NCBI GenBank assembly: GCA_017405875.1
Contig: JAFQZM010000029.1
Coordinates: 1 to 64,000, forward strand
DNA from: a bacterium
GTDB lineage: Bacteria; UBP6; UBA1177
Direction: 5' to 3'
Length of the DNA: 64,000 nucleotides
The position numbers were made by a program, and so were the translations under genes. Below are positions 2,954-57,207 of this stretch, piece after piece. Numbering within the stretch: position 1 is the first letter of the stretch; each line of letters opens with the position of its first letter. Under the pieces are notes generated by a model. That model had not been told where the DNA came from. It did not search any database and saw nothing but the letters and a program-made list of their open reading frames with translations.

Positions 2954-4693
2954 TTAGTTTATCTTTACTATTTCAGCACTTGAATTCCGGTACTGCGGCA
3001 TGCATTCGCCTACCGGCGCACCGATGTAGGTCGGATCGGAAACTACGAACTTTCTGCCGTCCAAATCGAAGTAAGAGCCGTAGACCTCTTCATCACCGAA
3101 GTTTACAGCTGTCGCCAGATGCTGCGGATAGTGAAGGAGCACGACTTCAAGCCCGAGAAGCTCTCTTACCAGAATCGCGAACAGAATAGAGCGGTCTTCA
3201 CAGTCGGAATACGGATAATAGAAAGTTTCGTCGCCGAAAAGAGGTCTTTCATAGCCGAACTGTTCCTGATCTGTCTGGTATTGAAAAGCTGTCTGCACGA
3301 AATTCATCAGAATATTTGCCGCGTCAAGTTTGGTTTTGCCGCTTATCTGCGCTCTGAGTGCCGGATAGAGTGTATTTTTTATCTCTTCACTCAAGGAAGC
3401 ACGGACATAATCGTCCCAGCTGCCGCTCACCGGATAATCATTGTAGAAATCGATCAGATTTTTGTTGGTAATTACTTCTGCAAATGTATCCTGATACCTT
3501 CTTGACTGGAAGATTTTGCCACTGCCTTTGGACTGCCCCAGTCTGGGTGTTCCGGGCATTTTCAGCGACGCTGTCTTTTCGCGCGGAAAACTCGTTTCAT
3601 ATACCTGGTAAGTACGGCTCTGTCCGCGGGCTTCTTTATCAAGAATGTAATACTTCTTACCGTCACCTAAAATAAAATATGGATAAGTGTACAAATCAGT
3701 TCTGAAAGGAACAAGCAGGATCAGCTTGTCGCCGCTTCTTGCAAGGCGTACTTTGTATCCTGACTGAGCCAGAACAAACATCTGCAGCAGAACTGCCTCA
3801 TTGCTTTCTCCAAGGAAATGTTCACTCATAACGCGCAGCATATCGATATAGCCCCAGTCACCGAGTCTGAGATCATCTTTCAGATCGAAACAGTCTGAAA
3901 GCAGAATGTCGAAATCTTCCGATGACAACTGTTTCCAGACTTCAGCAACAGCTGCTTCTGAAACGTCAGGCAGCGAAAAACGCATCGAATCATAGAAGTG
4001 AACTTTGCAGCTTGCACCGTGATAAAGGAAATTATAATCTCTTTCATATTCTTCGATGATTCCCTCAGCCATGATCGGGTCACCTGCCGCATTGAATCTG
4101 CTGTGTTCAGTCGTCGCCATTATCGGGTCACCTGCTGCGTTGAACCTGCTGTGCTCAGTCGTAGCCATTATCGGGTCGCCTGCGGCATTCCTTCTCATAA
4201 TCGGATCGCCCGCAGCGTTTTTCATGATGGGATCTCCGGCCATGATCGGATCACCCCCATCGTTAAACCTTGCGACGGGTGCAACAGGCTTCGGTTCGTC
4301 ATAACTTTCAGCTTTTACAATTTTATTATAAGACAATTTGACGGCAGTTGTCCATTTATCATCCTTTTTCTCGTAGGGCTTTGGCGGCTCTTTGCTTTTT
4401 GGAACCGGAATCGCGGCATTTTTTTTGCGCGTTGCCCATTTCTTTTTCATCATGTCGGCGAACTTTTCGTTCACTGAACGCCTGTAGGCATCATATTCCT
4501 GCTGCTTTTTCGTTTTGTACTTTTTGTACTGTTGCAGCATATTCTGCTCGTAATCCTTTCTGCTTTTAGCTTTCTCTTTTTTGAACTCTTCTTGAGCTTT
4601 TGCCTGACGAGCCTTGTATTCCTGAAAAGTTTCGGAATATATCGGACTGATCAGAAAACATGCACAGACTGCAAATAAAATCATCCTTTTCAT
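2954..4693 (-). CDS. Secreted transglutaminase-like protein with coiled coil and GDPIM repeats
   Basis: A 579-residue exported protein. A signal peptide (about 1-20, cut after IYS) is followed by a Lys/Glu/Gln-rich segment likely to be coiled coil (21-90), a Pro/Lys linker, and six copies of the pentapeptide GDPIM (about 146-208), two of them inside a perfect 16-residue tandem repeat. The C-terminal third looks like the transglutaminase/cysteine protease fold: Cys498 in SDCEDRS, His525 in PQHLATAV and Asp553 in SDPTYIG form a plausible catalytic triad. In that superfamily members cut or cross-link peptides. The substrate is unknown. It lies 29 bases downstream of the membrane-anchored protein at 4723-5325, which may be its partner. 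The GDPIM block recurs in an otherwise unrelated lipoprotein at 27000-28643. Confidence 0.75.
   Translation of the reverse strand: MKRMILFAVCACFLISPIYSETFQEYKARQAKAQEEFKKEKAKSRKDYEQNMLQQYKKYKTKKQQEYDAYRRSVNEKFADMMKKKWATRKKNAAIPVPKSKEPPKPYEKKDDKWTTAVKLSYNKIVKAESYDEPKPVAPVARFNDGGDPIMAGDPIMKNAAGDPIMRRNAAGDPIMATTEHSRFNAAGDPIMATTEHSRFNAAGDPIMAEGIIEEYERDYNFLYHGASCKVHFYDSMRFSLPDVSEAAVAEVWKQLSSEDFDILLSDCFDLKDDLRLGDWGYIDMLRVMSEHFLGESNEAVLLQMFVLAQSGYKVRLARSGDKLILLVPFRTDLYTYPYFILGDGKKYYILDKEARGQSRTYQVYETSFPREKTASLKMPGTPRLGQSKGSGKIFQSRRYQDTFAEVITNKNLIDFYNDYPVSGSWDDYVRASLSEEIKNTLYPALRAQISGKTKLDAANILMNFVQTAFQYQTDQEQFGYERPLFGDETFYYPYSDCEDRSILFAILVRELLGLEVVLLHYPQHLATAVNFGDEEVYGSYFDLDGRKFVVSDPTYIGAPVGECMPQYRNSSAEIVKIN
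4070..4258 (-). repeat. GDPIM peptide-repeat block, copy 1
   Basis: Six GDPIM motifs are encoded here, with spacers growing from one to eleven residues (GGDPIM, AGDPIM, KNAAGDPIM, RRNAAGDPIM, then twice ATTEHSRFNAAGDPIM). The DNA is rich in GATC because Asp-Pro-Ile-Met is often spelled GAT-CCG-ATC-ATG. A second block, of six motifs, is at 27426-27533. Confidence 0.9.
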
Positions 4694-5554: not shown

Positions 5555-8500
5555 CTACCTTACACAACGGACATTTCTTTGCATCTCCTTCATAGGATAT
5601 GTATTTGTAACCATAAAAGGAGTAGCCACAAATATTCCTGTTCCGAAATGGACAATGTGATGAACTGAAGAAGACCAAAATTCTAAACTTGGCATGTCGG
5701 GAAAATCTGATGCTGGAGAAACATTGTCATAATTTATAAGCGAAGCGAGTTCGTTTCTGTTAGGTAATCTCCAATCGGAATATCCGGCATACGTCAGGTT
5801 CTCGCAATAAGAAAGAGCCTCTTTCCAGGTTTTGCCTGAAACATAATCTTTTTGCCACATTAAGCCTGTTGTCGAATCTGTAAGAACAATATTGCTGTTT
5901 ACTGTTGTGGTCGTAAATGAAGAAAGAGATAATAAATCCTTTCCCCAGACGCATCTAACCTTAACTCTATCGTCCAATGTTTTTGAAAGCGTTGATACAA
6001 AATCAAAAGCTGTGGTGATGGAATTCTCTCCCAATATCCATGCGTATTCCGGGTCTGAAACGGAGGTTTTTGAACTCCAAAGTGACATGTGTGAGATTTC
6101 TGTGAAATAATTTGGGTCATCTAATGCTACATAAATTGTTAAAAGTTCCTGAGGTGTAGGCAAGCGCCATCCGCTATCATGTCCGCCATAGTTTAAGTTA
6201 TTACAGTAATTTACAGCTTCTTCCCATGAGTAATTTCCACTTGAAATTTCTTGTTGCCATTCTAGTCCAGTGTTGTGATCAATAACGACATTTTGATCAG
6301 AAATCGTTTCGACACTCAAAGTCACAGGGATACACTTTCCTTTAGCGGCATATTGTGCATCCTGACCGTAAAAGTCAGCACTGGGAGAAGTCGGACAAGT
6401 CATTGTTTGACCATAGTTGCCTCCGTTGTGACATACTGTAACACCAGTGCAAATATTACCTAAAGCTTTTTGTTGTTTACACTGTGGATAGCTCCAGTAA
6501 TATCTATTGTCACATTCACAGGAATAATCCCGCCATGAAGTTGCATTGCAGACTGCTGTTGAATTGGCAACTTCATCACAAGGTTCGTAATCACATGGGC
6601 TTGTGCATTGGGAATTATACCAATAGTGAGTATTATCACATTTATATCTGCATTCACTTGAACTTGATTCTTCATTATAAGTACCTGTTGTCGTCGGAAC
6701 CCAGGTTAATCCGTTCCATGTCTGGGTAATGCTTGAAACACTGTTCCATGTCGCATTTGTGATTAAGCCGGTACATGAAGCAGTTTTTGTGTTGGATATA
6801 CAACTTGCTCCACCGTTTTCAGTATGGTAACTATCTGAACATTTATATCTACATTCTGAAGTGCTAGAAGTCGTATTGTATGTAGTTATATTTGATGGAG
6901 TCCACTCACTTCCGTTCCATGTCTGAATTATTGCTGAAACTGCATTCCAGCTTGCATTTGCAGGAATATCAGTGCAACTTGCAGTTCGTGTGTCAGCCTC
7001 GCATTTTGAACCGTCCCATGTGTAGTTGGTCTTGCATTTGAATCTGCATTCTGCACTGCTTGCAGTCGTGTTGTAGCTTCCGGTTGTTGACGGCTGCCAA
7101 CTTGATCCGTTCCAAGTCTGAGTGATGCTTGAAGCAGTGTTCCACTGTGCGTTTGACGGAAGTCCCGTGCAGTTTGCTGTTTTTGTGTCTGCTTCACACT
7201 TTGAGTTCTTCCAACTGTAATTTTCGTTGCATTTGAAGCGGCATTCCGATGTGCTTTCGGCTGTATTGTATGTTCCTACAGGACTCGGCTGCCATTCTTC
7301 GCCGTTCCAGGTCTGTTCTATACTCGAAACGCTGTTCCAGCTTGCATTTGCAGGAAGTCCCGTGCAGTCTACTGTCTGCTTGCTGAATTCACATCTTGAG
7401 TTTTTCCAAACATAATTTGTGTTGCATTTGAACCTGCATTCCGATGTGCTTTCAGTTTCGTTGTAACTTCCAGCTGTTGTCGGCTGCCAATTTTCTCCGT
7501 TCCATGTCTGTGTTATGCTTGATGCGCTGTTCCAGCTTGCGTTCGCCGGAAGTCCGATGCAGTTTACTGTTTGAGTGTCTGCTTCACATTGTGAATTTTT
7601 CCAACTGTAATTGGTGTTGCACCTGAATTTGCACGCATCGGAATTTTCGCCGGTGTCAAATACAGCCTGATTCGACGGAATCCACTCCGTTCCGTTCCAA
7701 GTCTGCTGAACAGATAACGACGGACTTGTCCATGCTGCACTTGCCGGCAAGCCTTCGCATTCAGCAGTTCTTGTATTTGCTTCGCAGGTCGCCCCTTTCC
7801 ATGTGTAATTGGGGTTGCATTTAAAACGGCATTCCGACATGCTTTCTTCTTCGTTGTATGTTCCTGCCGCTGAAGGTAGCCATTCTACTCCGTTCCATGT
7901 CTGCATTATGCTTGAGGCCATATTCCATGCTGCATTTTCCGGAAGTCCTGTGCAGGCTGTTGTTTTTGATTCAGGTTCACACGAACTGCCTTTCCATGTA
8001 TAGTTGGTATTGCATACAAAACGGCACTCATCACTGCTCGGCTCTTCATTGTATGTACCTTCCAACGGTGGAACCCACTCCTGACCGTTCCAGCTCTGCT
8101 CTATTTTTGAAACAACGTTCCAATGAGAATTTTCCAGGAGCCCCGTGCACTTTGAAGTCTTTTTATTGATGCACTTATTGTCTTCCCAAATATAGCCGGA
8201 ATTACATTTGAAACGGCATTCGGTCTCGCTGGATTCTTCATTGTATGTGCCTTGTGTCGAAGGTGTCCATTCTTCACCGTTCCAAGTCTGTTCGATTTCT
8301 TCAGCTTTGTTCCATTTCGCATTCTCTGGAAGATCTTCGCACACTTTTGTCCTTTTATTTGCGACACAGTTGTTGCCTGAATAACCTTCGTGGCAGATAC
8401 ATGAAAAACTTCCGTCTTCGTTCGCACAGTCGGAATGCTCTGGACATTTGTTCAGCTCAGGATCGGCGCATTCGTCTATGTCCGCGCATGTATTTTTTGA

Positions 8501-9283
8501 ATTTATCTCATAGCCGTCGTCGCATTTGCATTCGTAAGTTTCGGGTCCTGTCGACTTGCAGGTTCCGTGACCGCACGGGTTGTTCCTGCAGGAATCAAAA
8601 TTGGTCGCTTTTATCGTAAGCGCCTTATTGCCGTTGTTGGAAGTTACGTGAAGTTTTGTAAGGTTTTCACCGTCACGCAGCAAAGTGCGGTCAATATTGA
8701 CAATAATTCCCAGCGTGTTGCCTGCCCCGAGATTGCCGGACTCCTTACTTATCGACTTTATCCATTCTGCAGTTTTGATGATCTCCCAGTCTATAGCAGC
8801 TGAACTGTCGTTGAAAATGTTGAAAGAACGAGAAACATCATCTACTTCACCGCCGAAATCAAGTTCATCAATATCGTTTCCTGCGTCATCCACGATTCTC
8901 AGAGTCGCAGATTCCTTCTTAAGCTGGACATCACGGCGAACCAACCTGTCTTTCACGGTTATAACAAAATCATCGATAAGGTCGGTGTAACCGGCTTTGG
9001 AAACGGTGATAGAATAGTCTCCTGATGCAAGATTCTGAAATTCAAACATTCCGTCTGAACCGGTCAGAGTCGTATCTCCGCCTGGACGAAGCTGAACATT
9101 GGCATTCGCAACGTCTTCACCTGTGACGAAATCTGTTACGTGTCCGTAAATCCCGCCTGTGCTGCCGGTATTAGTATTTCCTGAATCACCAGTTCCGCCG
9201 CTGCCCGTTGAACCGCCGCCGCAGGCAACGAAAATCAAACTAAAAACCAAAATCAAAAGTGCTGAAATAATTGAGCTTTTCAT
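5555..9283 (-). CDS. Large modular lipoprotein with EGF modules, nine Cys/Trp repeats and two DUF1566 domains
   Basis: A 1242-residue lipoprotein. In order: signal peptide with lipobox FVAC (18-21); Gly/Ser/Thr linker; CarboxypepD_reg-like domain (about 44-121); BACON-like domain (124-226); one EGF-like module (SCRNNPCGHGTC...) and one calcium-binding-type EGF module starting DIDEC (about 231-306); nine tandem Cys/Trp-rich units of about 66 residues (311-905); a Cys-rich link; and two DUF1566/Lcl_C domains with WRLP and LWSS/FWSSS motifs, ending NVRCVR. The head and tail match the neighbouring paralogues while the EGF modules and repeat number differ. A role in surface binding or adhesion is inferred from domain types only. 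Confidence 0.85.
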   Translation of the reverse strand: MKSSIISALLILVFSLIFVACGGGSTGSGGTGDSGNTNTGSTGGIYGHVTDFVTGEDVANANVQLRPGGDTTLTGSDGMFEFQNLASGDYSITVSKAGYTDLIDDFVITVKDRLVRRDVQLKKESATLRIVDDAGNDIDELDFGGEVDDVSRSFNIFNDSSAAIDWEIIKTAEWIKSISKESGNLGAGNTLGIIVNIDRTLLRDGENLTKLHVTSNNGNKALTIKATNFDSCRNNPCGHGTCKSTGPETYECKCDDGYEINSKNTCADIDECADPELNKCPEHSDCANEDGSFSCICHEGYSGNNCVANKRTKVCEDLPENAKWNKAEEIEQTWNGEEWTPSTQGTYNEESSETECRFKCNSGYIWEDNKCINKKTSKCTGLLENSHWNVVSKIEQSWNGQEWVPPLEGTYNEEPSSDECRFVCNTNYTWKGSSCEPESKTTACTGLPENAAWNMASSIMQTWNGVEWLPSAAGTYNEEESMSECRFKCNPNYTWKGATCEANTRTAECEGLPASAAWTSPSLSVQQTWNGTEWIPSNQAVFDTGENSDACKFRCNTNYSWKNSQCEADTQTVNCIGLPANASWNSASSITQTWNGENWQPTTAGSYNETESTSECRFKCNTNYVWKNSRCEFSKQTVDCTGLPANASWNSVSSIEQTWNGEEWQPSPVGTYNTAESTSECRFKCNENYSWKNSKCEADTKTANCTGLPSNAQWNTASSITQTWNGSSWQPSTTGSYNTTASSAECRFKCKTNYTWDGSKCEADTRTASCTDIPANASWNAVSAIIQTWNGSEWTPSNITTYNTTSSTSECRYKCSDSYHTENGGASCISNTKTASCTGLITNATWNSVSSITQTWNGLTWVPTTTGTYNEESSSSECRYKCDNTHYWYNSQCTSPCDYEPCDEVANSTAVCNATSWRDYSCECDNRYYWSYPQCKQQKALGNICTGVTVCHNGGNYGQTMTCPTSPSADFYGQDAQYAAKGKCIPVTLSVETISDQNVVIDHNTGLEWQQEISSGNYSWEEAVNYCNNLNYGGHDSGWRLPTPQELLTIYVALDDPNYFTEISHMSLWSSKTSVSDPEYAWILGENSITTAFDFVSTLSKTLDDRVKVRCVWGKDLLSLSSFTTTTVNSNIVLTDSTTGLMWQKDYVSGKTWKEALSYCENLTYAGYSDWRLPNRNELASLINYDNVSPASDFPDMPSLEFWSSSVHHIVHFGTGIFVATPFMVTNTYPMKEMQRNVRCVR
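6570..8353 (-). repeat. Nine tandem ~66-residue Cys/Trp repeat units
   Basis: Nine in-frame copies of a ~198-base unit. The coded pattern is C-x-G-L-P-x-N-A-x-W-N, then I-x-QTWNG-x-x-W-x-PS, then SECRFKCN-x-NY-x-W-K-x-x-x-C. Copies 5-7 are the most alike, which suggests recent duplication; copy 4 is the most divergent. Confidence 0.85.
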
Positions 9284-11352: not shown

Positions 11353-13584
11353 CTAATCCGCAGTTCTTACACAACGGACATTGTTTAATGAAGCCTTAGT
11401 GGTAAAACCATTATCTCCATTCGAGAAATCGACGAACACACCATCACTACCATAGGTGGTAGAAGACCAATAATAGCCGTCTTTAAAACTGCCTATCAAA
11501 TTTCTGTTGTTATAAACAATTAAAAGTTCCTCTTTCGTAGGAAGACGCCAGTCGGTTTGACCTGCTAAAAAGGAATAGTTGCATATATCCAGTGCAGTAA
11601 ACCAGGAACTCCCAACTCCTCCGTTTGCATCTTCCCGCGCAACTATCAGACCACGTGATTCAAGAATGACATAAGGCGGAAGTTGTGCTACAAAACTAAC
11701 AATATTTCCGTAAACCATAAGTGTCCCGACTTTTGTATAAGCTCTGACATAATAGGTCGCTCCAGTTTCGAGATCGCTGACTGTGCGTGCATAAGAACCC
11801 GTTCCTGTTCCGGATGCACTTACCGTAAGAACTCCCTCCTCATCAAGGGTCGGAACCTGCATCTTTCCATAAATAAATCCGCGCTCGGTGTAAGCCGGAT
11901 CACCAATGCTTTCTATCGTACCGTTGAATGTCGCGGTCGTATCATCAATATCAGACACTTCCTGAGTTGTTACAACAGGAAGAACCTTGCTGAAATCTAA
12001 CGTAACTTCATTGCCGTAAGATATGCTTTGACTGCTCAGCGCATAGGCGCGAACATAATAGATTTTATTCATTTCTAGTTCACTTACATTCACAGAAAAA
12101 TCGCCTGTTCCTGTGCCTGTGGCAACTTTCTTTGTGTCATCTTGTACCGTAGGATTGTGAACAGTCCCATATACAAAGCCGCGTTCAGTATATGCCGGAT
12201 CTCCCACACTCTCTATTGCACCGTTCAAAGTAGCAGTTCCACCGCTTATGCTTATATTTGTTGGTTCTTTGGTCTGAACTATTGGTTTTTCTGCATTAAA
12301 CTCCAATTTTACTTCATTTCCGTAACCAATTCCCGCCTCGCTTATTGCATAAGCACGAATGTAATAAATCGTGTTTATCTCAAGTTCCGTGACTTTGATG
12401 GAAAAAGCTCCCTCTCCGTTGCCGGTCACTTCTTTTTTGTTGTCGTCTTCCACTGCCGGGTTGTGATCGTGCCCCCAAACAAAACCACGTTCGGTATAGG
12501 CAGGATCGCCGATACTTACTATTGTTCCGTTGAATGTAGCTGTTCCGCTGCCGAAACTGATATTTGTAGGATGTTCGGTCGTCAGTTCCGGAAGACTTTG
12601 ATGAGGTTTGAAAGTTACGACATTCGTGCTGTAAGCAACTCCCGCTTCATTTATCGCATAACCTCTGACATAGTATTCTTCACCGAGCTCAAGCCCTGTT
12701 ACTGTCGCGGAATAAAGATTTTCTTCCGTGACTTTAGCCGTAAGCTGTGCGATCGTGTTTTCAAGTGTCGGATTCGACTCAAGTGCATACACAAAACCGC
12801 GCTCGCTATAGCTCGGAACGCCCTTCGTCAATATCTCGGCATTCAAAACTGCGGTGGAAGAAGTGATATTCGTTGTCTCCAAAGTGTTTAGTGTCGGAAG
12901 AACCGTGGCGTTTGTCGCCTTAACCTTGAGCTGCTTGTTGCCGTCATTGGATGTGACATGAATCGTCGTTACATTTTCACCGCTTTCCAAAAGGCTTCGG
13001 TCGATGTTCACGATGACACCCTGAGTGCCGCCCTCTTTAAGTTCGCCCGACTCTTTGCTGAGAGATGCAATCCAGTTGGCGGAAAATGAAATTTCCCACT
13101 CAAGTTTTTCATATCCGTCGTTGAAGATGTTGAATTGACGCGAAACATCGGAAAGTTTCTCTCCGAAATCAAGCTCGGAAATGTCTTTTCCGTTATCATC
13201 GACGATTCTCAGTGCTGCCGGAAGTTTTTCCAGCTGAACATCGCCTTTTGCTTGTTTACCGGATTCTACAGTGATGGAACTGCTGTTGTCGCTGAAACCT
13301 GTTTTTGTCACAAACAGAGTGTAAGTGCCGGCTGCAACTTCATTGAACTCAAACTGACCGTCACTGCCTGTAACCGTTTTCAAGCCTGTTGGCTGAAGTT
13401 CAACTCCTGCATTGATTATGGATTCACCGGTTGCCTTGTCGGTAACAATACCGTAAATCGAACCTGTTTCCCCAGAATCGTTGCTACCTGAACCGCCGTT
13501 GCCGGATCCTTCCGAACCGCCGCAACTGACCAGAAATGCAAAAACCGCGAAAACTGCAGTTAAAATCGATAGTGTTTGTTTCAT
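11353..13584 (-). CDS. Modular lipoprotein with FN3-like repeats and a DUF1566 domain
   Basis: A 743-residue lipoprotein. Lipobox FLVSC (about 17-21) and a Gly/Ser/Asn linker are followed by a CarboxypepD_reg-like domain and a BACON-like domain close in sequence to those at 1-423. The middle has about four repeats of roughly 90-95 residues with the pattern TATFNGTI-x-S-x-GDPAYTERGF-x-YG ... G-x-G-x-F-S-x-x-V-x-x-LE-x-x-x-x-YYVRAYA, typical of FN3-like beta-sandwich repeats in secreted proteins. A single DUF1566/Lcl domain (WRLPTKEELL, YYWSSTTYG, NNVRCVR) ends the protein. It swaps the Cys/Trp arrays of its paralogues for FN3-like units while keeping the head and tail. Confidence 0.85.
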   Translation of the reverse strand: MKQTLSILTAVFAVFAFLVSCGGSEGSGNGGSGSNDSGETGSIYGIVTDKATGESIINAGVELQPTGLKTVTGSDGQFEFNEVAAGTYTLFVTKTGFSDNSSSITVESGKQAKGDVQLEKLPAALRIVDDNGKDISELDFGEKLSDVSRQFNIFNDGYEKLEWEISFSANWIASLSKESGELKEGGTQGVIVNIDRSLLESGENVTTIHVTSNDGNKQLKVKATNATVLPTLNTLETTNITSSTAVLNAEILTKGVPSYSERGFVYALESNPTLENTIAQLTAKVTEENLYSATVTGLELGEEYYVRGYAINEAGVAYSTNVVTFKPHQSLPELTTEHPTNISFGSGTATFNGTIVSIGDPAYTERGFVWGHDHNPAVEDDNKKEVTGNGEGAFSIKVTELEINTIYYIRAYAISEAGIGYGNEVKLEFNAEKPIVQTKEPTNISISGGTATLNGAIESVGDPAYTERGFVYGTVHNPTVQDDTKKVATGTGTGDFSVNVSELEMNKIYYVRAYALSSQSISYGNEVTLDFSKVLPVVTTQEVSDIDDTTATFNGTIESIGDPAYTERGFIYGKMQVPTLDEEGVLTVSASGTGTGSYARTVSDLETGATYYVRAYTKVGTLMVYGNIVSFVAQLPPYVILESRGLIVAREDANGGVGSSWFTALDICNYSFLAGQTDWRLPTKEELLIVYNNRNLIGSFKDGYYWSSTTYGSDGVFVDFSNGDNGFTTKASLNNVRCVRTAD

Positions 13585-26970: not shown

Positions 26971-26999
26971 TTTGCGTTATTTTTTTAGTGGAGGAGAAA

Positions 27000-28643
27000 A
27001 TGAAAAAGTTCTTGATTTCAATTTCTATGGTTTTGATCCTTGTTCTGACTGCATGCGGAAGCAGCAAAAAAGAGAAAGAGCCTGAAAACAACGGTGAAAA
27101 ACAGCAGATCACCTCTGCAAAAATGACCGTTTCGGCAACAGACGGCGGAACGATCGTCACTGAAGACGGCACCGCTAAGATCGAGATCCCGGCTGGCGCT
27201 ATTGATGAAGACACCGAGATCACGATGACCCTTTTTGAGAAAAAGAGTTTTCCGGATGAAGACAAACTAGTTTCAAAGGTCGTAACTTTCGAGCCGTCAG
27301 GCCTTGTTTTCAACAAAGATGTAACTATCACGCTCACTATCGACTCGACCTATACGACTGTTCCCGAAAATATGGCTGTAGTTCCGGCATTCCTCGCAGG
27401 AACGAAGTGGTCTCACCGCGAAGCAGGCGGCGATCCGATCATGGGCGGCGACCCGATCATGGCAGGAGATCCCATCATGGCGGGCGACCCGATCATGGGC
27501 GGTGACCCGATTATGGCAGGAGACCCGATCATGATGAATGCAGGACACTTCTCAAGCTACGCTTTCATACTTGTCGAAACCGGTTCGACACCTGTAGAAC
27601 CGACAACTGATCCGACAGAAGAACCCACCGGTGAACCAACGGAAGAACCTACGGAGGAACCGACCGAAGAACCCACTGAGGAGCCGACTGAAGAGCCCGA
27701 ATTGGTACAGGAATCCTACACTCTTTCCTGCACAGGTCAGACTCTCTGCTACGGAACCGACAACAAACCGCTCGAAGAGTGCGGCAGCGACCCTGAATCG
27801 GGATATTTCGGACAGGATGCACAGCGTACAGACACATGTGCGGCAAGAAACTTCACAACCGGCGGCACGAACACGAATCCGACCAACATCGACAGCAACA
27901 CTGGTCTTGAATGGCAGAAAACCTATAACGGCACGCTTGCGACATTTGAAGAAGCGGTAAGCTACTGCGAAGGTCTTGAATACGGCGGCTACTCAGATTG
28001 GAGACTTCCGGAGATTCAGGAACTTGCAACAATAATCGATTACTCTTTCTACAATTTCGTCGATGAGTCAGTTTTCCCCGATTTCCCGACGAGCGGTGCT
28101 TTCTGGTCGAACACTCTCTATGCTTCAGGTTCCAGCACGGTATCCCGTCTCGGAATAAACTTCTCTCCGAACACTATGACAGGAATCAACGACTATGCTG
28201 AGACCAAAACCAATTACGCCGTATGCGTCAGAGGCGAAGTTTTCAGAAAAGGAACAATCGTTTTCAATGAAGAACAGATCGATGGAGGTCTGGTAATCAC
28301 AGATACGGCAAGCGGACTTCAGTGGACAAAATCGAATGCAACTGGAAAGAAATGGCTCGAAGCACTTGAATACTGCGAAAACCTCACTTTCGGAGGCAAT
28401 ACAGACTGGAGACTTCCCAACATCAACGAACTTATTTCCATCATGGATTACGCAAAATATTCTCCTGCAACGGTTTTTCCGGATATTGACAGTATCACTC
28501 TCTGGAGTTCGACTTCAAAGACTCCCAAAAATGCGACAAGCTCTTCAACATCAGCTTGGAAAATGGCAACGAAAACAGGTCTTACAGCTCCTGCAACGAA
28601 AACCAGTTCATACAATGCAATGTGTGTAAGAGGAGGAAAATAA
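27000..28643 (+). CDS. Lipoprotein with ZU5-like domain, GDPIM repeats and two DUF1566 domains
   Basis: A 547-residue lipoprotein starting at the ATG at 27000, behind GGAGGAGAAA. Order: signal peptide with lipobox LTAC (16-19); ZU5-like beta domain (about 41-130, with GTAKIEIPAGAIDEDTEIT and VVTFEPSGLVFNKDVTITL); six uninterrupted GDPIM hexapeptides (143-178); a short NAGHFSSYAFILVE strand that fits the end of a ZU5-type region; a Pro-Thr-Glu repeat linker (about 198-235); and two DUF1566/Lcl domains with WRLPEIQEL and WRLPNINELI motifs. The GDPIM block thus interrupts or extends the ZU5-like domain. The downstream MFS gene begins four bases after the stop. Confidence 0.82.
   Translation: MKKFLISISMVLILVLTACGSSKKEKEPENNGEKQQITSAKMTVSATDGGTIVTEDGTAKIEIPAGAIDEDTEITMTLFEKKSFPDEDKLVSKVVTFEPSGLVFNKDVTITLTIDSTYTTVPENMAVVPAFLAGTKWSHREAGGDPIMGGDPIMAGDPIMAGDPIMGGDPIMAGDPIMMNAGHFSSYAFILVETGSTPVEPTTDPTEEPTGEPTEEPTEEPTEEPTEEPTEEPELVQESYTLSCTGQTLCYGTDNKPLEECGSDPESGYFGQDAQRTDTCAARNFTTGGTNTNPTNIDSNTGLEWQKTYNGTLATFEEAVSYCEGLEYGGYSDWRLPEIQELATIIDYSFYNFVDESVFPDFPTSGAFWSNTLYASGSSTVSRLGINFSPNTMTGINDYAETKTNYAVCVRGEVFRKGTIVFNEEQIDGGLVITDTASGLQWTKSNATGKKWLEALEYCENLTFGGNTDWRLPNINELISIMDYAKYSPATVFPDIDSITLWSSTSKTPKNATSSSTSAWKMATKTGLTAPATKTSSYNAMCVRGGK
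27426..27533 (+). repeat. GDPIM peptide-repeat block, copy 2
   Basis: Six perfect tandem 18-base units encode G/A-GDPIM without spacers. Codons vary between units (GAT/GAC, CCG/CCC, ATC/ATT), so the peptide, not only the DNA, appears to be conserved. The other block is in the transglutaminase-like protein at 4070-4258. Confidence 0.92.
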
Positions 28644-49544: not shown

Positions 49545-49551
49545 AGTGAGT

Positions 49552-50985
49552 TTTGAGAAGAGTAGAAATTTTAACGGTTTAGCAGCCCTTTTGTTCTTGA
49601 AAGGCAGTTTATTAATCTACAATAGTAGAAATTTTAACGGTTTAGCAGCCGCTTTGGGATTTAGAGGAGCAGAGGAAAATCTACAATAGTAGAAATTTTA
49701 ACGGTTTAGCAGCCTTTTAAAATTTCACCAAAAAGAGAAAAAATCTACAATAGTAGAAATTTTAACGGTTTAGCAGCCCATCTTCGATATTCTGAGCGTT
49801 CACAGATCTACAATAGTAGAAATTTTAACGGTTTAGCAGCCTCATACCAGCGGCGAGCGCATCATCTGCATCTACAATAGTAGAAATTTTAACGGTTTAG
49901 CAGCCGTATGACGCAATAAATCAGAGTTGGCTATCTACAATAGTAGAAATTTTAACGGTTTAGCAGCCTACACCGTCATCGTCGTAAGTGTCAACAATCT
50001 ACAATAGTAGAAATTTTAACGGTTTAGCAGCCGCCCCGGTCGAGAGTTCTTTTTCAATTCATCTACAATAGTAGAAATTTTAACGGTTTAGCAGCCCTTT
50101 CTTAGGGGGTGAACAATAAAACTTATCTACAATAGTAGAAATTTTAACGGTTTAGCAGCCCGAAAATCAGCGAAAGCAGTCAGCATGATCTACAATAGTA
50201 GAAATTTTAACGGTTTAGCAGCCGAATGAAACGGGCTTGCAACACGCATCTATCTACAATAGTAGAAATTTTAACGGTTTAGCAGCCGGCGCGATAGCCG
50301 AAATACGATACTTGATCTACAATAGTAGAAATTTTAACGGTTTAGCAGCCAAGCCGTTTGTCGTTAGTCCAAACTTCCATCTACAATAGTAGAAATTTTA
50401 ACGGTTTAGCAGCCAAAATACAGCCACGCGGAAAAATGCCCAAATCTACAATAGTAGAAATTTTAACGGTTTAGCAGCCGCACGAAGAAACAGTAGAAAA
50501 ATGCGCATCTACAATAGTAGAAATTTTAACGGTTTAGCAGCCATGAGGTGAAGAAAATGAACAGAGACGAATCTACAATAGTAGAAATTTTAACGGTTTA
50601 GCAGCCGACTGCTGCAATCTGTATGACACGGGATCTACAATAGTAGAAATTTTAACGGTTTAGCAGCCAAGAGAGGCGGAAAAACTCGCCGAACTTATCT
50701 ACAATAGTAGAAATTTTAACGGTTTAGCAGCCTTTATTTCACAAAAAAGTTGGATACTTATCTACAATAGTAGAAATTTTAACGGTTTAGCAGCCAATGG
50801 TTTTTTCAGGTTGTTCTTCTCTTATCTACAATAGTAGAAATTTTAACGGTTTAGCAGCCGAGATATTGCCGAAAAAACGGAATCAGATCTACAATAGTAG
50901 AAATTTTAACGGTTTAGCAGCCATGAAAAAATTTACTTTGTGGAGTGATATCTACAATAGTAGAAATTTTAACGGTTTAGCAGCC
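49552..50985 (-). CRISPR. Type V-A CRISPR array, 23 repeats and 22 spacers
   Basis: Twenty-three 36-base repeats with 22 unique spacers of 26-29 bases. On the transcribed minus strand the repeat begins GGCTGCTAAACCG and ends with the Cas12a-type handle stem-loop TCTAC-TATT-GTAGA-T. Repeats 2-23, counted from the left, appear identical. The leftmost (49552-49587) keeps GGCTGCTAAACC...TCTAC but has lost the GTAGA arm, as expected for the oldest, leader-distal repeat. This and the position of cas2 show that the leader is at the right end. No spacer obviously matches the window. Confidence 0.98.
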
Positions 50986-51262
50986 CCCTGTTTTCAAAAT
51001 GCGCTACAAACACATAATAAAATCAAGATGTTGCGAAACCAAATTTTGGATATCTTTTAGGGGGTGTATCCCATTAAAGATCAAAAAAAATCGTGCTAAA
51101 CCCTTTGTTGAAGCGGTTTTGGATAAAAACCTGCTTTTTTGGGAAGACTGCGGTTTGCTAAAAACCTATTCTATTCTCAGTTGTGAATGAACCGTCGATT
51201 TTTACTACTAAACCGCGAGACCGAACCTACATATTTTATGAAGCGAAGTCAAGACCTCATCA
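50986..51262 (-). promoter_or_regulatory. CRISPR leader
   Basis: An A+T-rich 277-base noncoding stretch between the first repeat and cas2. It carries the probable array promoter at 51014-51042 and two short pieces matching part of the repeat in reverse orientation: TGCTAAACC at 51094-51102 and TACTAAACCG at 51205-51214 on the plus strand. On the minus (transcribed) strand these read as antisense to the crRNA repeat, and the first is followed by a run of T's. Confidence 0.75.
51014..51042 (-). promoter_or_regulatory. Putative CRISPR array promoter
   Basis: Minus-strand TTGGTT (51037-51042), 17 bases, TATTAT (51014-51019). Transcription would begin about 20 bases before the first repeat. Confidence 0.55.
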
Positions 51263-51535
51263 TCACAAATACACGATATCCTGGTCTCGATGAATAGCAT
51301 TTCCGTATTTTTTCAGTTTCACCGCGGAAACATCAAAAATAATAACGCTGTCACCGCCTCCGAATTTTCTGGAGTATTCATCTTCAATTTTGAGGACAAT
51401 ATTATCCATGACTCTGTTGGAATTATTTACCTCGTAAACAGAATATTGAAGACGGATCGCACCGTTTCTTGTCAGCATTTTAGCAAATCTGCAGCGAAGC
51501 TTGTCATCGCTTATGTCATAACTTATCACCAGCAT
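51263..51535 (-). CDS. cas2: CRISPR-associated endonuclease Cas2
   Basis: A 90-residue ferredoxin-fold protein: LVISYDISDDKLRCRFAKML with the conserved first-strand Asp, then IRLQYSVYEV and VIIFDVSA. Cas2 dimers bridge Cas1 dimers during spacer acquisition. The start ATG shares one base with the TGA stop of cas1, so the two are translationally coupled. Confidence 0.95.
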   Translation of the reverse strand: MLVISYDISDDKLRCRFAKMLTRNGAIRLQYSVYEVNNSNRVMDNIVLKIEDEYSRKFGGGDSVIIFDVSAVKLKKYGNAIHRDQDIVYL

Positions 51536-52515
51536 CAGGCACTGAATTCAGGATAGTTTGTTATCGATTTTTTCTGCATGAAACAGCGATAATAATCCTG
51601 CACATACTTGAAAACTTCCATTTTGTAAGGAATCAGTGCGTCGAAAAAGACGCGGTAATAATCCTGGTTCTTTTCCAACTTCAAGAAATATTCACCCTTG
51701 CGGCAGTTAAAATCTTTTTCCGAGAATTGCTTGCGGTTAAATGCTGTCCGCACAGCCTTGTCCACAATACAGCGAAACGGCTCCATAATATCGCAGACAA
51801 GCGATTTTCGCTTAAACCAAGTCCGGTGAAAAATGCCGACATAAAGATCGAAACCGAACATTCTTAAAAAAGATTCAATGTAGTTGAAAAGTATCGTGTA
51901 TCCGATATCAAGCGTGACATTCATGACATCGCACTTTGTTCTTGGTCTCCTCGCGACCCAGTTCTGATTTTGAAAGTATGCCGAGAAATAGAGTTTGGAA
52001 GCCGCACCTTCGCATCCCATCAATTCAGAATAATCTTCGATATTTTCAACGTTTTTCATAATTGTTGACAACTGCGACTTTGCCTTTTCGGTAAGCTCGT
52101 CCTTTTTCCTTGTATCCTGCAAATTTTTAATTTGATTGGCGATCTTGTTTGCAACAATGATTTTTGCGATCGAGATGTCGTTTTTATCGAATTGATACTG
52201 TTTCTGGTGAAGCAAAAAATTCGCTTCGGCATAGTTTGCCCAAAAGAAAACAGCTCTTAAATTCGGTTTCATGACAACTAGCGAAACCCCGTATTTCTGG
52301 CACTTTTCAATCAACGGCGTGGTTATATGAATATGACCAATGACAAAAAGAGCCAGAATTTTTTGAAACGGCATTTTTGTTAAAGTTTTGGTTCCATCGG
52401 AATTTTCCACTTCTTCCTCAAGCAGCAGTTCCCCGTTGGAAACACGCAGATTGCGCTTGTTTACGCAGTTGATAACAAAAATTGTTCTGTATTCCAGATC
52501 TTTATGAGTAAACAT
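51535..52515 (-). CDS. cas1: CRISPR-associated integrase Cas1
   Basis: A 326-residue integrase of spacer acquisition, read from the ATG at 52513-52515 (MFTHKDLEYRTIFV). An upstream in-frame ATG would overlap cas4 by a further 150 bases with an improbable sequence. It has the beta-rich N-domain (NLRVSNGELLLEEE), then KCQKYGVSLVVMKPNLRAVF, and the helical C-domain (GCEGAASKLYFSAYF, NVTLDIGYTILFNYIES, VGIFHRTWFKRKSLVCDIME), which hold the conserved Glu and His of the active site. It overlaps cas4 by 14 bases. Confidence 0.95.
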   Translation of the reverse strand: MFTHKDLEYRTIFVINCVNKRNLRVSNGELLLEEEVENSDGTKTLTKMPFQKILALFVIGHIHITTPLIEKCQKYGVSLVVMKPNLRAVFFWANYAEANFLLHQKQYQFDKNDISIAKIIVANKIANQIKNLQDTRKKDELTEKAKSQLSTIMKNVENIEDYSELMGCEGAASKLYFSAYFQNQNWVARRPRTKCDVMNVTLDIGYTILFNYIESFLRMFGFDLYVGIFHRTWFKRKSLVCDIMEPFRCIVDKAVRTAFNRKQFSEKDFNCRKGEYFLKLEKNQDYYRVFFDALIPYKMEVFKYVQDYYRCFMQKKSITNYPEFSA

Positions 52516-53068
52516 TTTCCATTTCCGTTTTGTCGCAAAGGTTACAATAGATACAATGCTCGCATTTGTTCGGGTTCGGCGTGAAATTCTGCGCAGGGTC
52601 ATAGTTCCTGAAGCGGGTAATAAACTCTTCAAACTCTTTTTCGTCCTCAGAATTTGGCATATCAACAGGAATCATTTTATTTGTGGATATTTCATAAAAT
52701 GCAATGCTTTCAACCTGATAGCCCATTTCACGCATACAAAACATCTGTGCCCAAAGTTGATAGATTTGCCCCTGAAATATCTTTTTCAACTGGTATTTCC
52801 GTTCTATCAGCCTTTTTTCTTTTACCTTGTACTGATCGATTTTTCCCATGATACCGAAGCGCTCAGAGTAAACAGGCAGAGATAGCAGAACATCGGAACG
52901 GTTGGTTGAAGTTTTATTGTCCGTAGCCTCGTGGGCCAGTTTTCCTCTTGTCTGAGGCGATGCATGATACATCGTCTCATCTGTCTCCATATAGACATTA
53001 TGAAGATATATGGAATAAGGACAAAAGATGAAATCATTTAATGTGGAAATTGAAATATACTCTTCCAT
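52502..53068 (-). CDS. cas4: CRISPR-associated exonuclease Cas4
   Basis: A 188-residue RecB-like nuclease. A first Cys (Cys16, in FIFCPYSIY) and a C-terminal cluster CEHCIYCNLC (Cys169, 172, 175 and 178) form the iron-sulfur site; the nuclease motifs are KIDQYKV, ERKYQLK and QIYQLWAQM. In type V-A systems Cas4 trims and selects protospacers by PAM. Its ATG shares one base with the cas12a stop, and cas1 overlaps its end. Confidence 0.93.
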   Translation of the reverse strand: MEEYISISTLNDFIFCPYSIYLHNVYMETDETMYHASPQTRGKLAHEATDNKTSTNRSDVLLSLPVYSERFGIMGKIDQYKVKEKRLIERKYQLKKIFQGQIYQLWAQMFCMREMGYQVESIAFYEISTNKMIPVDMPNSEDEKEFEEFITRFRNYDPAQNFTPNPNKCEHCIYCNLCDKTEMENVYS

Positions 53069-56000
53069 TAGCCTTTTTTACGAGCTTCTTCCTGAACGAA
53101 CGAAAGCCATGCTACATTTTTTATTGGTTCAATTTTGAATTTTTTCCAGTCGCTTCCTTCAAACTGCTTGATCTGACGAATAAGCCAAAGCCCTTTTCTC
53201 GCAATATTGTAGGCTCCGTTTGCGTCTGCATCCTGCGGAAGAGTTTTGTCGGACTTCCTGCTGTCAAAGTGATTGCCGTTTTTATCGGCGACAGGAGAAA
53301 TCAGATAATCGGTTGAACTGTTCGTGATGCTGTTTCTCATCTGCACCGTCAATTTGAACAGATAAAGCAGTCTTTGGAAGAAATCTTTGCTTGTCTGCCT
53401 TACAATTTCGGCTTTAAGATCGCTGTTCAATGCGATTTTATAAGTCTCGAAATGCTTTTTGAATTCGAGTGTCAGATCGATTTCACGATTATCCCAGTTG
53501 TGATTTTTCTTTTCATTTCTGAAAGTTTCGATTCTTGAACCGATTGTGCAGACGCTCCATTTTGTCTGAGAATCTCCTGCTTTCACAGTGAAATTTTTAT
53601 AGTCGAAAGCAAACTCAAAATGATCTTTTTGCGGATTGTAGCAGATAGAATCAAACTTTGAGAAGAAATCCTTTGCCTTTTCGATGGATTCATAGCGCGT
53701 ATTAAAGAAGTTCACAAAACCTGTGACGGGGTCGATTTTGCTTGTATTCCAAGCCGGAACATAGAAGAGCATCCCGCTCTGTTTTCCTAATTTCTTGAAG
53801 CTCTCGAATTTGCCGGTTAACTGATATGCATGGAAAAGTCCGCCCGGCTCATTCGGGTCTTTCACCTGTTTGTCTACAAGGAAATTCAATTTGTCGATGA
53901 GCTTCTTTTCAAACTGCTCATAGACACTTTTTTCAACCTTCTGGCGACCGCGCATAAAGCCAGCGTTGAGATCTTCAAGAACAACAATCGCTTTGTATTT
54001 TATCATCAGCTGCGAAATTTTATGAATGACCTGACTGAGATAGCCGCTCTTTAAATCTTTAATGTTTTCAACTGATTGCCAGCTTCTGCGTGCAGCGTCT
54101 CTTTCTTTTTCCCTGTTATCAAGGAGTTTATGATAATCTGTGCGGTAATCATATTTGTTTTCACTGACGATTTCATTGAGTGAGATTTGTTCCTTTATGT
54201 TTCCGTTAAGGTCGATAACTGTTACATAGAGCAGATTCCTTTCACCGCGGTCAATTCCAATAATGTTCAGATCATCAGACTCTTTGATATAGTCGCAGAC
54301 AAGAGCGTTTATATTGTCACGATTTCCGGCTTTGAAATTGATCGTCATCGGCACATGGAATTGAAACTTATCTAAGGAATAGCGGCGGTCTTTAATGATT
54401 GGATATGCAAATTTATCTTTCAATTCTGTGTAGTGGTGACCGTGTTTCTGAATTTCATCATTATAGGTTATTGATTTCTTACGGAAGAAAACTTCAGCTT
54501 CGCCGTTGAGTTTGTAAACGACATCTTTAAGGTTGCTGCTGTCAAAAAGCATTCTCCAGTATAGCGTGTGTATATTCGGAGTTCCTTTGCTGTAAGAGGA
54601 AAAATCCTTGTTGTAGATCTGGAAAAGATAGAGTTTTCCCTCGTCAACGAGCTGATTGATATATGATGTTGATACGTTTACAAAGGAGATTTTGTATCCC
54701 TGCTGCTCGACCTCGCGATAAAATTGACTTATATCTTCATAAGATGAGGTGTCTGAAAAATGGAAGTCGAAATCTTGCCAGTCCTTATTCTTCCTGAGGG
54801 ATTCCTTCATGAAGTTGATCCATTTGCGGAGATCTTCCGGCTTAACATTCGGACCTTTCTTGAAAGTCTCTTTCTTTCTGATTTCTAAAATTTCATCACT
54901 CGGGGCGAATTCGTTGATGCGTGATGCTGCAAAGAAAACCTTGGGAAGCATTTTATTCGGACCGGGTAGAAGTTTATAAACCATTTTTTCATAGCAGTCG
55001 CCATCTGATTTTATCTCTTTAGAAGCAAAGATTTTGTTGTTATTTTTGTCCATGATTCCGAGATAATACATGCCATCCTTTCTGAGAAGAACACAAGTGT
55101 TGTCTGACTCTTTGTTCAGATCCCAGCCGTTCAAAAGAGTCGAATTTTTAAAGTTCAGCTTGATCTTTTCGGTCGAGTATGGCTTTCTCGTTAAATAGTT
55201 GCGGACTTTGTTGTATAACAGTGTAAAATTATTAAAGTTTTCATATAGCGGAGAAAATTCGCCGTAAAACTCGGCATTTTTGTCTGATTCGGTTCCCGAG
55301 CCGACCAGAGGTTTCACAAATCTTTGCAAATCCTTGATGGCATCAAGAAAATTCTTGATTTTTTCAACATTCTGCTTGTCGGCAGCAAGTTTATTGCCTT
55401 CTGGATAACTGCAATTCAAAAGGTCGCGAGTGTTGAGATATTGCTTTGAAATTTCAGCAAGCAGGTCGTTCCGGCTATTTTCAGGCTCGCCGCAATTCGC
55501 AAAGTATTGATCAACTCCTTTTTCTTCACCGGCTTCCTTGAGACATTCGTTGATAAAACCAATCGAATAGCTCTCCGCATTCGTCATCTTTTTGATGCGC
55601 TCTTCATACTTTTCAGCCTTTTCTTTGCTTTTTGGCGGATTGTTGCGTTTGAACCATTCCTCGATCGCATTGGGAATAACCGCATAAGAACCGAACATCT
55701 GCTGAGAAATGTTTGTAAGCTGCAAATCGTTGCTTATGTAAATTGTTTTAAGGTCAAAATCTCCAGTTCTTTTCAGAAGCCTACGAAGATTCCCGAAAAA
55801 ATCGACTTCTTCGCTGTTTAGCTCTGTGTAGCATTTTTGAATTTGTTCCAAAACTTCATTATCTGAAACAAAAGCCTCCGGAATCCATGAAAAAGCATTT
55901 CGGTCACTTAAAATCTGCTTAAAAAGCGGCTTGAATTTCGGAAGACGATCCTTTTTCTCGCTCTGCTGCTGGTTATAAAGGTTTATGTATTCATTAAGAC

Positions 56001-56784
56001 CCTTTGTCTTTTCGCCCTGTTTCGGGCTTTTTCCGCCAAGAATAAGGTTGTAAGTTTCGATCTGCGTCTGAGTTAAAAGTGAACCGTAAAATGACAGCTC
56101 AAAAAATTCTGCAACCTTAGCTCCATTCAGCTCGCTGCTTAAATTTTTCTGCAGCTCTTCAATGTTTGATCTTATCTCATCAATCTGCGTGATTTTTTCA
56201 AAGATTTTCATATTGTCGATAAACTTTGGCAGATTTTCATTGATAAGTCGATAAGCAATCGCTGTCGATTTTTCCTCTGCGGAATACATGTTTTTTCTGT
56301 TTTCGTTGAAGCCGGTAAAATAAGTCGTGAAATCATTGAACTCGCCGATTAATTTGCGTTCTTCATCACTTTTTACCGCTTTGATAAGATCCTCGCGGAT
56401 AAGCTCTTTTCCGAAAATGCGTTCGAAAGTCGCTTTATTATTTTCGTTTTTAAAAATACCGGCAATATGTTTTCTGAGGTCAGCTACACAAGTGACGAGC
56501 TCATCTTTTCTGTTGCTGTTGTAACATTCAAAATATTCATCAAGAAGTTTCTTCAACCCGTCTTTTTCTTTTTCAGTCAAATTTGAAAGAGCGTTTTCAA
56601 TGAAAGTCTTGTGATACTCATCAATCAGCTTTTTCACTTTTTTATAGCTTTCAGCTCGCTTCTCGTCTTCAGCCAACAAACCCTTTTTCTCTATGTTCTC
56701 AAGAGTTTTCCCAATAGGTTTAAGCTCAAACCTGAGAGTTTTGCCAAGCGAAAAAAGCCCTGTGAAATCAGAAAAATTACTCAT
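53068..56784 (-). CDS. cas12a: Cas12a (Cpf1) RNA-guided nuclease
   Basis: A 1238-residue effector of type V-A, started at the ATG at 56782-56784 behind GGAGGAAAAA. It begins FSDFTGLFSLGKTLRFELKP, the typical wedge start. The RuvC residues are Asp845 (GIDRGERNL), Glu937 (VLEDLNAGF) and Asp1187 (QDADANGAY), with the Nuc arginine Arg1150 (QMRNSITN); all are present, so it should be active. HVPMTINFKAG marks the wedge region near the crRNA-processing site. Cas12a processes its own crRNAs and cuts double-stranded DNA next to a T-rich PAM. It heads the operon cas12a-cas4-cas1-cas2. Confidence 0.98.
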   Translation of the reverse strand: MSNFSDFTGLFSLGKTLRFELKPIGKTLENIEKKGLLAEDEKRAESYKKVKKLIDEYHKTFIENALSNLTEKEKDGLKKLLDEYFECYNSNRKDELVTCVADLRKHIAGIFKNENNKATFERIFGKELIREDLIKAVKSDEERKLIGEFNDFTTYFTGFNENRKNMYSAEEKSTAIAYRLINENLPKFIDNMKIFEKITQIDEIRSNIEELQKNLSSELNGAKVAEFFELSFYGSLLTQTQIETYNLILGGKSPKQGEKTKGLNEYINLYNQQQSEKKDRLPKFKPLFKQILSDRNAFSWIPEAFVSDNEVLEQIQKCYTELNSEEVDFFGNLRRLLKRTGDFDLKTIYISNDLQLTNISQQMFGSYAVIPNAIEEWFKRNNPPKSKEKAEKYEERIKKMTNAESYSIGFINECLKEAGEEKGVDQYFANCGEPENSRNDLLAEISKQYLNTRDLLNCSYPEGNKLAADKQNVEKIKNFLDAIKDLQRFVKPLVGSGTESDKNAEFYGEFSPLYENFNNFTLLYNKVRNYLTRKPYSTEKIKLNFKNSTLLNGWDLNKESDNTCVLLRKDGMYYLGIMDKNNNKIFASKEIKSDGDCYEKMVYKLLPGPNKMLPKVFFAASRINEFAPSDEILEIRKKETFKKGPNVKPEDLRKWINFMKESLRKNKDWQDFDFHFSDTSSYEDISQFYREVEQQGYKISFVNVSTSYINQLVDEGKLYLFQIYNKDFSSYSKGTPNIHTLYWRMLFDSSNLKDVVYKLNGEAEVFFRKKSITYNDEIQKHGHHYTELKDKFAYPIIKDRRYSLDKFQFHVPMTINFKAGNRDNINALVCDYIKESDDLNIIGIDRGERNLLYVTVIDLNGNIKEQISLNEIVSENKYDYRTDYHKLLDNREKERDAARRSWQSVENIKDLKSGYLSQVIHKISQLMIKYKAIVVLEDLNAGFMRGRQKVEKSVYEQFEKKLIDKLNFLVDKQVKDPNEPGGLFHAYQLTGKFESFKKLGKQSGMLFYVPAWNTSKIDPVTGFVNFFNTRYESIEKAKDFFSKFDSICYNPQKDHFEFAFDYKNFTVKAGDSQTKWSVCTIGSRIETFRNEKKNHNWDNREIDLTLEFKKHFETYKIALNSDLKAEIVRQTSKDFFQRLLYLFKLTVQMRNSITNSSTDYLISPVADKNGNHFDSRKSDKTLPQDADANGAYNIARKGLWLIRQIKQFEGSDWKKFKIEPIKNVAWLSFVQEEARKKG

Positions 56785-57207
56785 TTTTTCCTCCATTTAA
56801 ATATATATTTGCCACCATGTTTTTATCCATACAAACTTCAAAGAACCAACAAAAGATTTTCAATTTTACTCGCCAACTAAGGCATATACCGCCGAAGTTG
56901 GAAAAAATCATGTTTTTATAAAAGAAATCTTGCTCAATCTCCCCGCACTATACCCAAACTCATGCCCTTTTCAAGAATAACCACTTAATTTTATTAAATA
57001 ATTTTCCAATTTTAATCTATGCAGAGTTAAATAAAAACGCTTGATTTTGAGGCGTGATTTTAAACACTACTTTATAATTTGAAGATTAATATTAGATTTT
57101 TTACATTGACTTTGTTGCGTGAATATTTATTATTTGTTTGCAAACGGTTTATTTGGTAAAACGAGATGGAAAATGAAATTGTGATTCACAACGAAACAGA
57201 CTTGCAG
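56785..57207. other. A+T-rich intergenic region upstream of cas12a
   Basis: About 420 bases with no supported gene between cas12a and the azoreductase-like gene. It must contain the cas operon promoter on the minus strand, but I found no strong hexamer pair. One plus-strand promoter-like pair lies at 57106-57133. Confidence 0.6.
57106..57133 (+). promoter_or_regulatory. Promoter-like hexamers pointing antisense into the azoreductase gene
   Basis: TTGACT (57106-57111), 16 bases, TATTAT (57128-57133) on the plus strand. No credible plus-strand gene follows; a transcript would be antisense to 57208-57792. Confidence 0.35.

Follow-up and report, generated by a model that had tools for sequence, protein, structure and literature searches.

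The arrays of the window and their host genes

The window, that is, the whole stretch of 64,000 nucleotides analysed here, contains two genes that encode tandem copies of the pentapeptide Gly-Asp-Pro-Ile-Met (GDPIM). The one in which the repeat was found (the finding gene) encodes an exported protein, in which a signal peptide is followed by a K/E-rich, coiled-coil-like helix, a Pro/Lys linker, the GDPIM array and a transglutaminase-like C-terminal domain:

2954..4693, minus strand: finding gene, 579-residue exported protein with signal peptide (first to last: helix, linker, array, C-terminal domain)
4415..4633, minus strand: K/E-rich helical segment, residues 21-93 (low-confidence AF2 model and composition)
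4070..4255, minus strand: six GDPIM units (exact pattern), at 4241-4255, 4223-4237, 4196-4210, 4166-4180, 4118-4132 and 4070-4084
3035..3202, minus strand: candidate catalytic residues of the transglutaminase-like domain (conservation; PF01841 sub-threshold), Cys498 at 3200-3202, His525 at 3119-3121 and Asp553 at 3035-3037

A sequence-only reading of this DNA had placed six GDPIM motifs between a coiled coil and a Cys-His-Asp domain. Exactly six are present in the gene, between the K/E-rich helical segment and the domain carrying Cys498, His525 and Asp553, with an irregular spacing of 6, 9, 10, 16 and 16 residues. Two near-identical 48-bp units (MATTEHSRFNAAGDPI), evidently a duplication when their letters are compared, are separated by 6 synonymous changes and no amino-acid change. 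The transglutaminase-like label proposed by the same reading is plausible but weak: the Cys, His and Asp residues are kept in 4/4 full-length sequences (the finding gene and its orthologs), whereas the match to Pfam Transglut_core (PF01841; E = 0.017, 15.8 bits) falls under the 23-bit cut-off, so that the assignment is made because of one sub-threshold profile match and three conserved residues. A PDB search found no significant relative of the protein, and its AF2 model (pLDDT 40) is too low in confidence for judging the Cys-His-Asp geometry, the fold or the array.

Only 6 genomes, including its own, yielded full or partial orthologs of the finding gene. The array is the hypervariable segment among them (6 units in G000, 5 in G011, 3 in G008, 2 in G009 and 0 in G004), while the remainder is conserved; in G004 the transglutaminase-like domain is present and the array absent. 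With 0-6 units among orthologs, a tag function would therefore be dispensable in this protein, and the array is an optional insert that is not evidently the partner of the enzyme domain.

The second array gene lies on the opposite strand:

26988..28643, plus strand: lipoprotein with ZU5 domain, GDPIM array, PT-repeat linker and two Lcl_C domains
27138..27335, plus strand: ZU5 domain core (Pfam PF00791, E = 2.9e-6)
27429..27533, plus strand: six GDPIM units with a period of 18 bp (GDPIM plus one residue)
27546..27554, plus strand: His-Phe-Ser motif (residues 187-189), by homology the predicted ZU5/GAIN-type self-cleavage site, right after the array
28293..28631, plus strand: best Lcl_C domain (Pfam PF07603, E = 2.6e-47)

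As judged from Pfam, profile and predicted fold, this main type of host domain is a real ZU5. A profile search matched it to ankyrin-3 (E = 1.5e-7) and also to the ZU5 domain of ZO-1, and Foldseek matched its AF2 model (pLDDT 79) to the ankyrin ZU5 (E = 1.5e-5), to UNC5b and to the BAI3 GAIN domain. In the model the array is a long loop ahead of the penultimate strand, and the predicted cleavage motif HFS is found at the turn joining the last two strands, with strands predicted on both of its sides. Self-cleavage has been proposed for bacterial surface ZU5 domains (PMC3482391).

Elsewhere in the window, three lipoproteins of one family (444-2939, 5555-9283 and 11353-13584) carry a carboxypeptidase-regulatory-like domain and C-terminal WRLPN (Lcl_C) domains, as assigned by Pfam for the first and by eye for the other two, together with Cys-rich or other tandem repeat segments. 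A Type V-A CRISPR locus, whose proteins were identified by eye, spans 49549-56796 and includes a Cas12a-like protein (53068-56796, minus strand), a Cas1-like protein (51535-52665, minus strand) and an array in which the repeat ATCTACAATAGTAGAAATTTTAACGGTTTAGCAGCC recurs at intervals of about 64 bp.

Spread of the repeat and selection on the peptide

The genome from which the window comes (2.51 Mb) contains 62 exact matches to GGNGAYCCNATHATG in nine clusters and 0 to the reversed pattern; the nine arrays comprise the two of the window and seven elsewhere, of which the sequence-only reading had noticed that of the finding gene but not the other one in the window. Adjacent unit pairs in the two window arrays number 10, as against 0 in 200 base shuffles. 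The unit has the form xGDPIM, mostly with 1 or 4 residues between successive units. Matches were also found in 23 of 24 relatives of the same genus, family or order (3-114 per genome, control 0), the exception being G014, a member of the same genus with no array at all. Three genomes of another family of the phylum gave no match, and none of 358 genomes outside the phylum exceeded 4, with no tandem copies and only scattered ones among the matches listed. The matching contigs, again among the matches listed, are apparently from UBP6-type metagenome-assembled genomes of rumen, digesters and sediment.

Beyond this clade, at least 8 of the 139 genomes in a family that depositors assigned to Sphaerochaetaceae, Spirochaetales or Spirochaetia encode one array each, placed in a small lipoprotein or exported protein. 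Other carriers include at least two genomes labelled Bacillota and Limnochordia (L228, L241) and one labelled Bacteroidales (L214/L323); for all non-UBP6 carriers the count is a lower bound and the taxon labels are those of the depositors. The small Sphaerochaetaceae-labelled lipoproteins consist mostly of the array and have GDPIM at their end (L159 7351-7746, L216 2544-2909, L147 998-1357), and a topoisomerase-like gene is found nearby in two genomes (L147, L215). No GDPIM array was found in viral contigs; spread by viruses or plasmids was considered and rejected, plasmid and phage matches being only weak and partial.

Within the clade, 130 of 139 sampled array loci encode ZU5-type exported proteins, several of which, among those scanned, add Lcl_C domains. 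In all 130 an H[FYL][STG] or NFS motif, mostly GHFS or GHFT, follows within 40 residues of the array, and its likeness to the ZU5/GAIN sites makes this H[FY][ST]-type motif a likely self-cleavage site. The nine other hosts are transglutaminase-like proteins (4), alpha-2-macroglobulins (A2M; 3), an alpha-amylase and a beta-helix lipoprotein, and simple motif rules give 9/9 a signal-like start. By the same rules 14 loci lack a signal, those shown being mostly end-cut frames or misplaced starts. The search for tandem GDPIM and its accompanying domains that the sequence-only reading had proposed returned ZU5, A2M, alpha-amylase, beta-helix and transglutaminase-like domains, all in exported proteins; this recurrence in one clade, named beforehand as favouring a dedicated exported module, supports that guess. 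The HF[ST] motif is absent from four ZU5 proteins that have no array (L303, L304, L311 and that of G014). Three of them, L303, L304 and L311, are lipoproteins whose ZU5 domain has a short loop and precedes an FGE-sulfatase-like domain identified by eye.

The array regions contain 1003 perfect units and 24 that are one residue off (about 98% invariance); half of the latter are GDPVM, and Pro is changed in none. Many loci were fetched by the exact pattern, which favours perfect arrays, and a Pfam ZU5 survey made without the motif arrives at the same arrays. Codon identity is 0.545 between adjacent units (0.514 expected from genome codon usage) and 0.491 between units of different arrays (0.502 expected). 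With a near-constant peptide and synonymous codons close to chance, it follows that the peptide is selected and that the copies are old or recoded; to judge from the codons, the likeness of the units is not maintained by recent amplification or conversion of DNA. In the Sphaerochaetaceae lipoproteins, an independent lineage, the units differ by 82 amino-acid and 364 synonymous changes, as against 352 and 394 in the linkers. One ZU5 lipoprotein (L310, G007) has a decaying array (GVPV, GDQVM, GEPIM, GNPIM, GEPTM, GDPVM), useful as a view of an array once constraint is gone.

Metal binding alone does not predict that Gly and Pro should be invariant. No Pfam or NCBIfam profile covers the array, with at best sub-threshold overlaps (e.g. 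PGDYG), and the libraries and literature searched contained no family, solved structure or paper that describes GDPIM as a repeat, in agreement with the sequence-only reading, which knew of no described repeat of this type. We therefore consider the repeat new in kind.

The residue preceding Gly

The residue before Gly (position -1) varies by genome, as a dialect. Most of the genus has Ala and some Gly; G003 and the remaining genera of the family have Ser, and the count for Ser in G015-18 is 62/64; G019 has Gln (30/30), family f3 Ala and G011 Leu or Met (42/46); G005, a 77% complete genome that may be contaminated, is mixed. In the nine-spaced units of G003, Ser is found at -1 in 35/35 and Ala at -2 in 35/35, and in G000, Ala is found at -1 in 38/38; since the neighbouring Ala at -2 is constant while -1 differs, overall composition is not the cause. 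In G003, as in G016/G018, TCN and AGY codons are both used for the Ser at -1. The Leu dialect of the G011 genome is used also by its ortholog of the finding gene. Among the Sphaerochaetaceae the residue is not uniform (A/G/S/T).

The dialect is common to unlinked genes and unrelated hosts of one genome. The overlap of dialect profiles between large C18-type proteins and ZU5 lipoproteins is 0.664 in 14 genomes (0.312 when shuffled), a value reached by 0/10,000 shuffles. Because the C18-type proteins are themselves ZU5-like, the stronger test for unrelated folds is the comparison of transglutaminase-like, A2M, amylase and beta-helix hosts with ZU5 ones, which gave 0.759 as against 0.350 when shuffled in 11 genomes; the shuffles ignore relatedness, and independent lineages with a dialect of their own number only about six. 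The ZU5 tree, computed free of the arrays from a short alignment and with many unresolved forks, spreads the Ser-type genes of G003 over separate clades among Ala/Gly-type relatives. L148 (G003) and L184 (G006) have a common array skeleton (xS-LN-xS-LS-VT-NS) and differ mainly at -1.

The simplest account of a dialect common to unrelated folds is one shared partner, be it an envelope molecule or the arrays themselves, by which the motif is read, and we infer that the dialect co-evolves with such a putative partner. A residual possibility is that the dialect was spread by old gene conversion, followed by synonymous saturation.

Possible functions and relation to known systems

With these observations, the reading that we tentatively prefer, at somewhat less than an even chance, is that GDPIM arrays serve as an extracellular peptide tag specific to the lineage and recognized in trans by a shared putative envelope partner. 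Exported proteins of unrelated folds would display the tandem copies in surface loops or linkers, and the partner would anchor, sort or cluster the tagged proteins, several copies providing avidity. If the partner of each genome prefers one class of -1 residue, all arrays of that genome would change together. In the ZU5-Lcl_C lipoproteins the array lies just ahead of the predicted HF|[ST] site, so that after cleavage it would form the tail of the lipid-anchored half. The variable number of units in the finding gene, the mixed residues of G005 and of most of the genus (Ala/Gly), the non-uniform residue of the Sphaerochaetaceae and the array-free G014 speak against a tag. Its broadest form, a genome-wide surface code on unrelated exported proteins with one co-evolving partner (or the arrays themselves), species dialects and presence in a few members of other phyla, is also proposed tentatively, as something rather less than probable.

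Genome-wide dialects and tandem copies would also be accounted for if arrays on different proteins of one cell bound each other, as stacked turns or strands and with no separate reader, so that the same -1 residue would be demanded throughout the genome. The short bridges formed by the Ile-Met pairs of two successive units in the AF2 model of the ZU5 domain, and the Sphaerochaetaceae lipoproteins made mostly of array, are in line with such self-association. However, that model has low confidence in the first units (blocks of 49 and 45) and reaches only 73-85 in the last, an invariant Pro per unit is unusual in stacked strands, and the motif is kept also by genomes with a single array, so that this alternative is judged unlikely. 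The same grade is given to a structural role, in which GDPIM would be a favourable beta-turn/strand unit that lengthens a loop with no recognition in trans. The single xGDPIM at a natural loop position of one A2M homolog (L330), the one fixed ZU5 loop used in the main host and the variable linkers are consistent with a spacer, which does not predict a genome-wide dialect common to unrelated folds and leaves the degree of invariance, Ile and Met included, unexpected. If it were a spacer, the repeat would be just one of the short tandem repeats of surface proteins, a known kind.

It is improbable that the array acts mainly in ZU5 self-processing, by shaping or gating HF|[ST] cleavage or by holding the two halves together. 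The motif after 130/139 sampled arrays and its absence from 4/4 array-less ZU5 proteins would fit, but three of those four look orthologous, leaving few independent cases, and arrays are found in the nine non-ZU5 proteins and, in other phyla, also outside ZU5. A neutral minisatellite or mobile DNA repeat, in frame by chance, is hardly credible. Copy number does vary among orthologs and the finding gene has its duplicated pair; however, synonymous sites are near saturation with the peptide almost constant, even that pair differs only synonymously, and among 1353 matches (overlapping loci counted) the shortest open frame is 71 residues, so that no match is plainly non-coding. As an account of the present state, minisatellite, gene conversion and mobile DNA were rejected, the codons being randomized and array skeletons conserved between related genes. 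Equally remote is the suggestion of the sequence-only reading that the array is a cross-linking substrate of the transglutaminase-like domain. Domain and array do occur in one protein of the window, with Lys, Arg, Asn or Gln in the linkers of the arrays of this gene, but nearly all arrays are in proteins free of the domain, most array-bearing genomes have no detected ortholog of the finding gene, G004 has the domain and no array, and GDPIM itself contains neither Gln nor Lys.

If the preferred reading of a tag recognized in trans is true, it would represent an unknown bacterial way of labelling a whole set of surface proteins, and the dialects, changed in concert in several lineages, would be a natural experiment. 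Through them the partner could be sought by co-evolution and recognition tested in vitro. The tag would also help to explain the surface role of the expanded ZU5-Lcl_C lipoproteins in a barely studied UBP6-type group of rumen and sediment, and might serve as an orthogonal peptide tag.

Among known systems, RTX nonapeptide repeats are similarly exported, Gly/Asp-rich and often of period 9, and gave very weak phmmer matches (E = 0.15). However, GDPIM arrays lack the GGxGxDxUx consensus, have a conserved Pro-Ile-Met and also a period of 6; no RTX family of the Pfam and NCBIfam profiles matched them, and no common fold was shown. In PEP-CTERM, LPXTG and similar systems, a short conserved C-terminal sorting peptide is found on many unrelated exported proteins per genome, whereas GDPIM is mostly internal, tandem and in loops, with neither a transmembrane tail nor a known processing enzyme. 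Nucleoporin FG repeats and the heptads of the RNA polymerase II CTD are tandem short motifs under peptide-level selection that are read in trans; they are, however, eukaryotic and intracellular, with other motifs, and we know of no homology with GDPIM. To our knowledge, no member of the ZU5/GAIN (GPS) autoproteases (PIDD, the FIIND of NLRP1/CARD8, adhesion GPCRs) has a GDPIM array in the preceding loop. With these proteins the main host shares, by Pfam, profile and fold, the domain itself, along with a similar terminal motif (H[FL][ST]-like) that falls between the final two strands.
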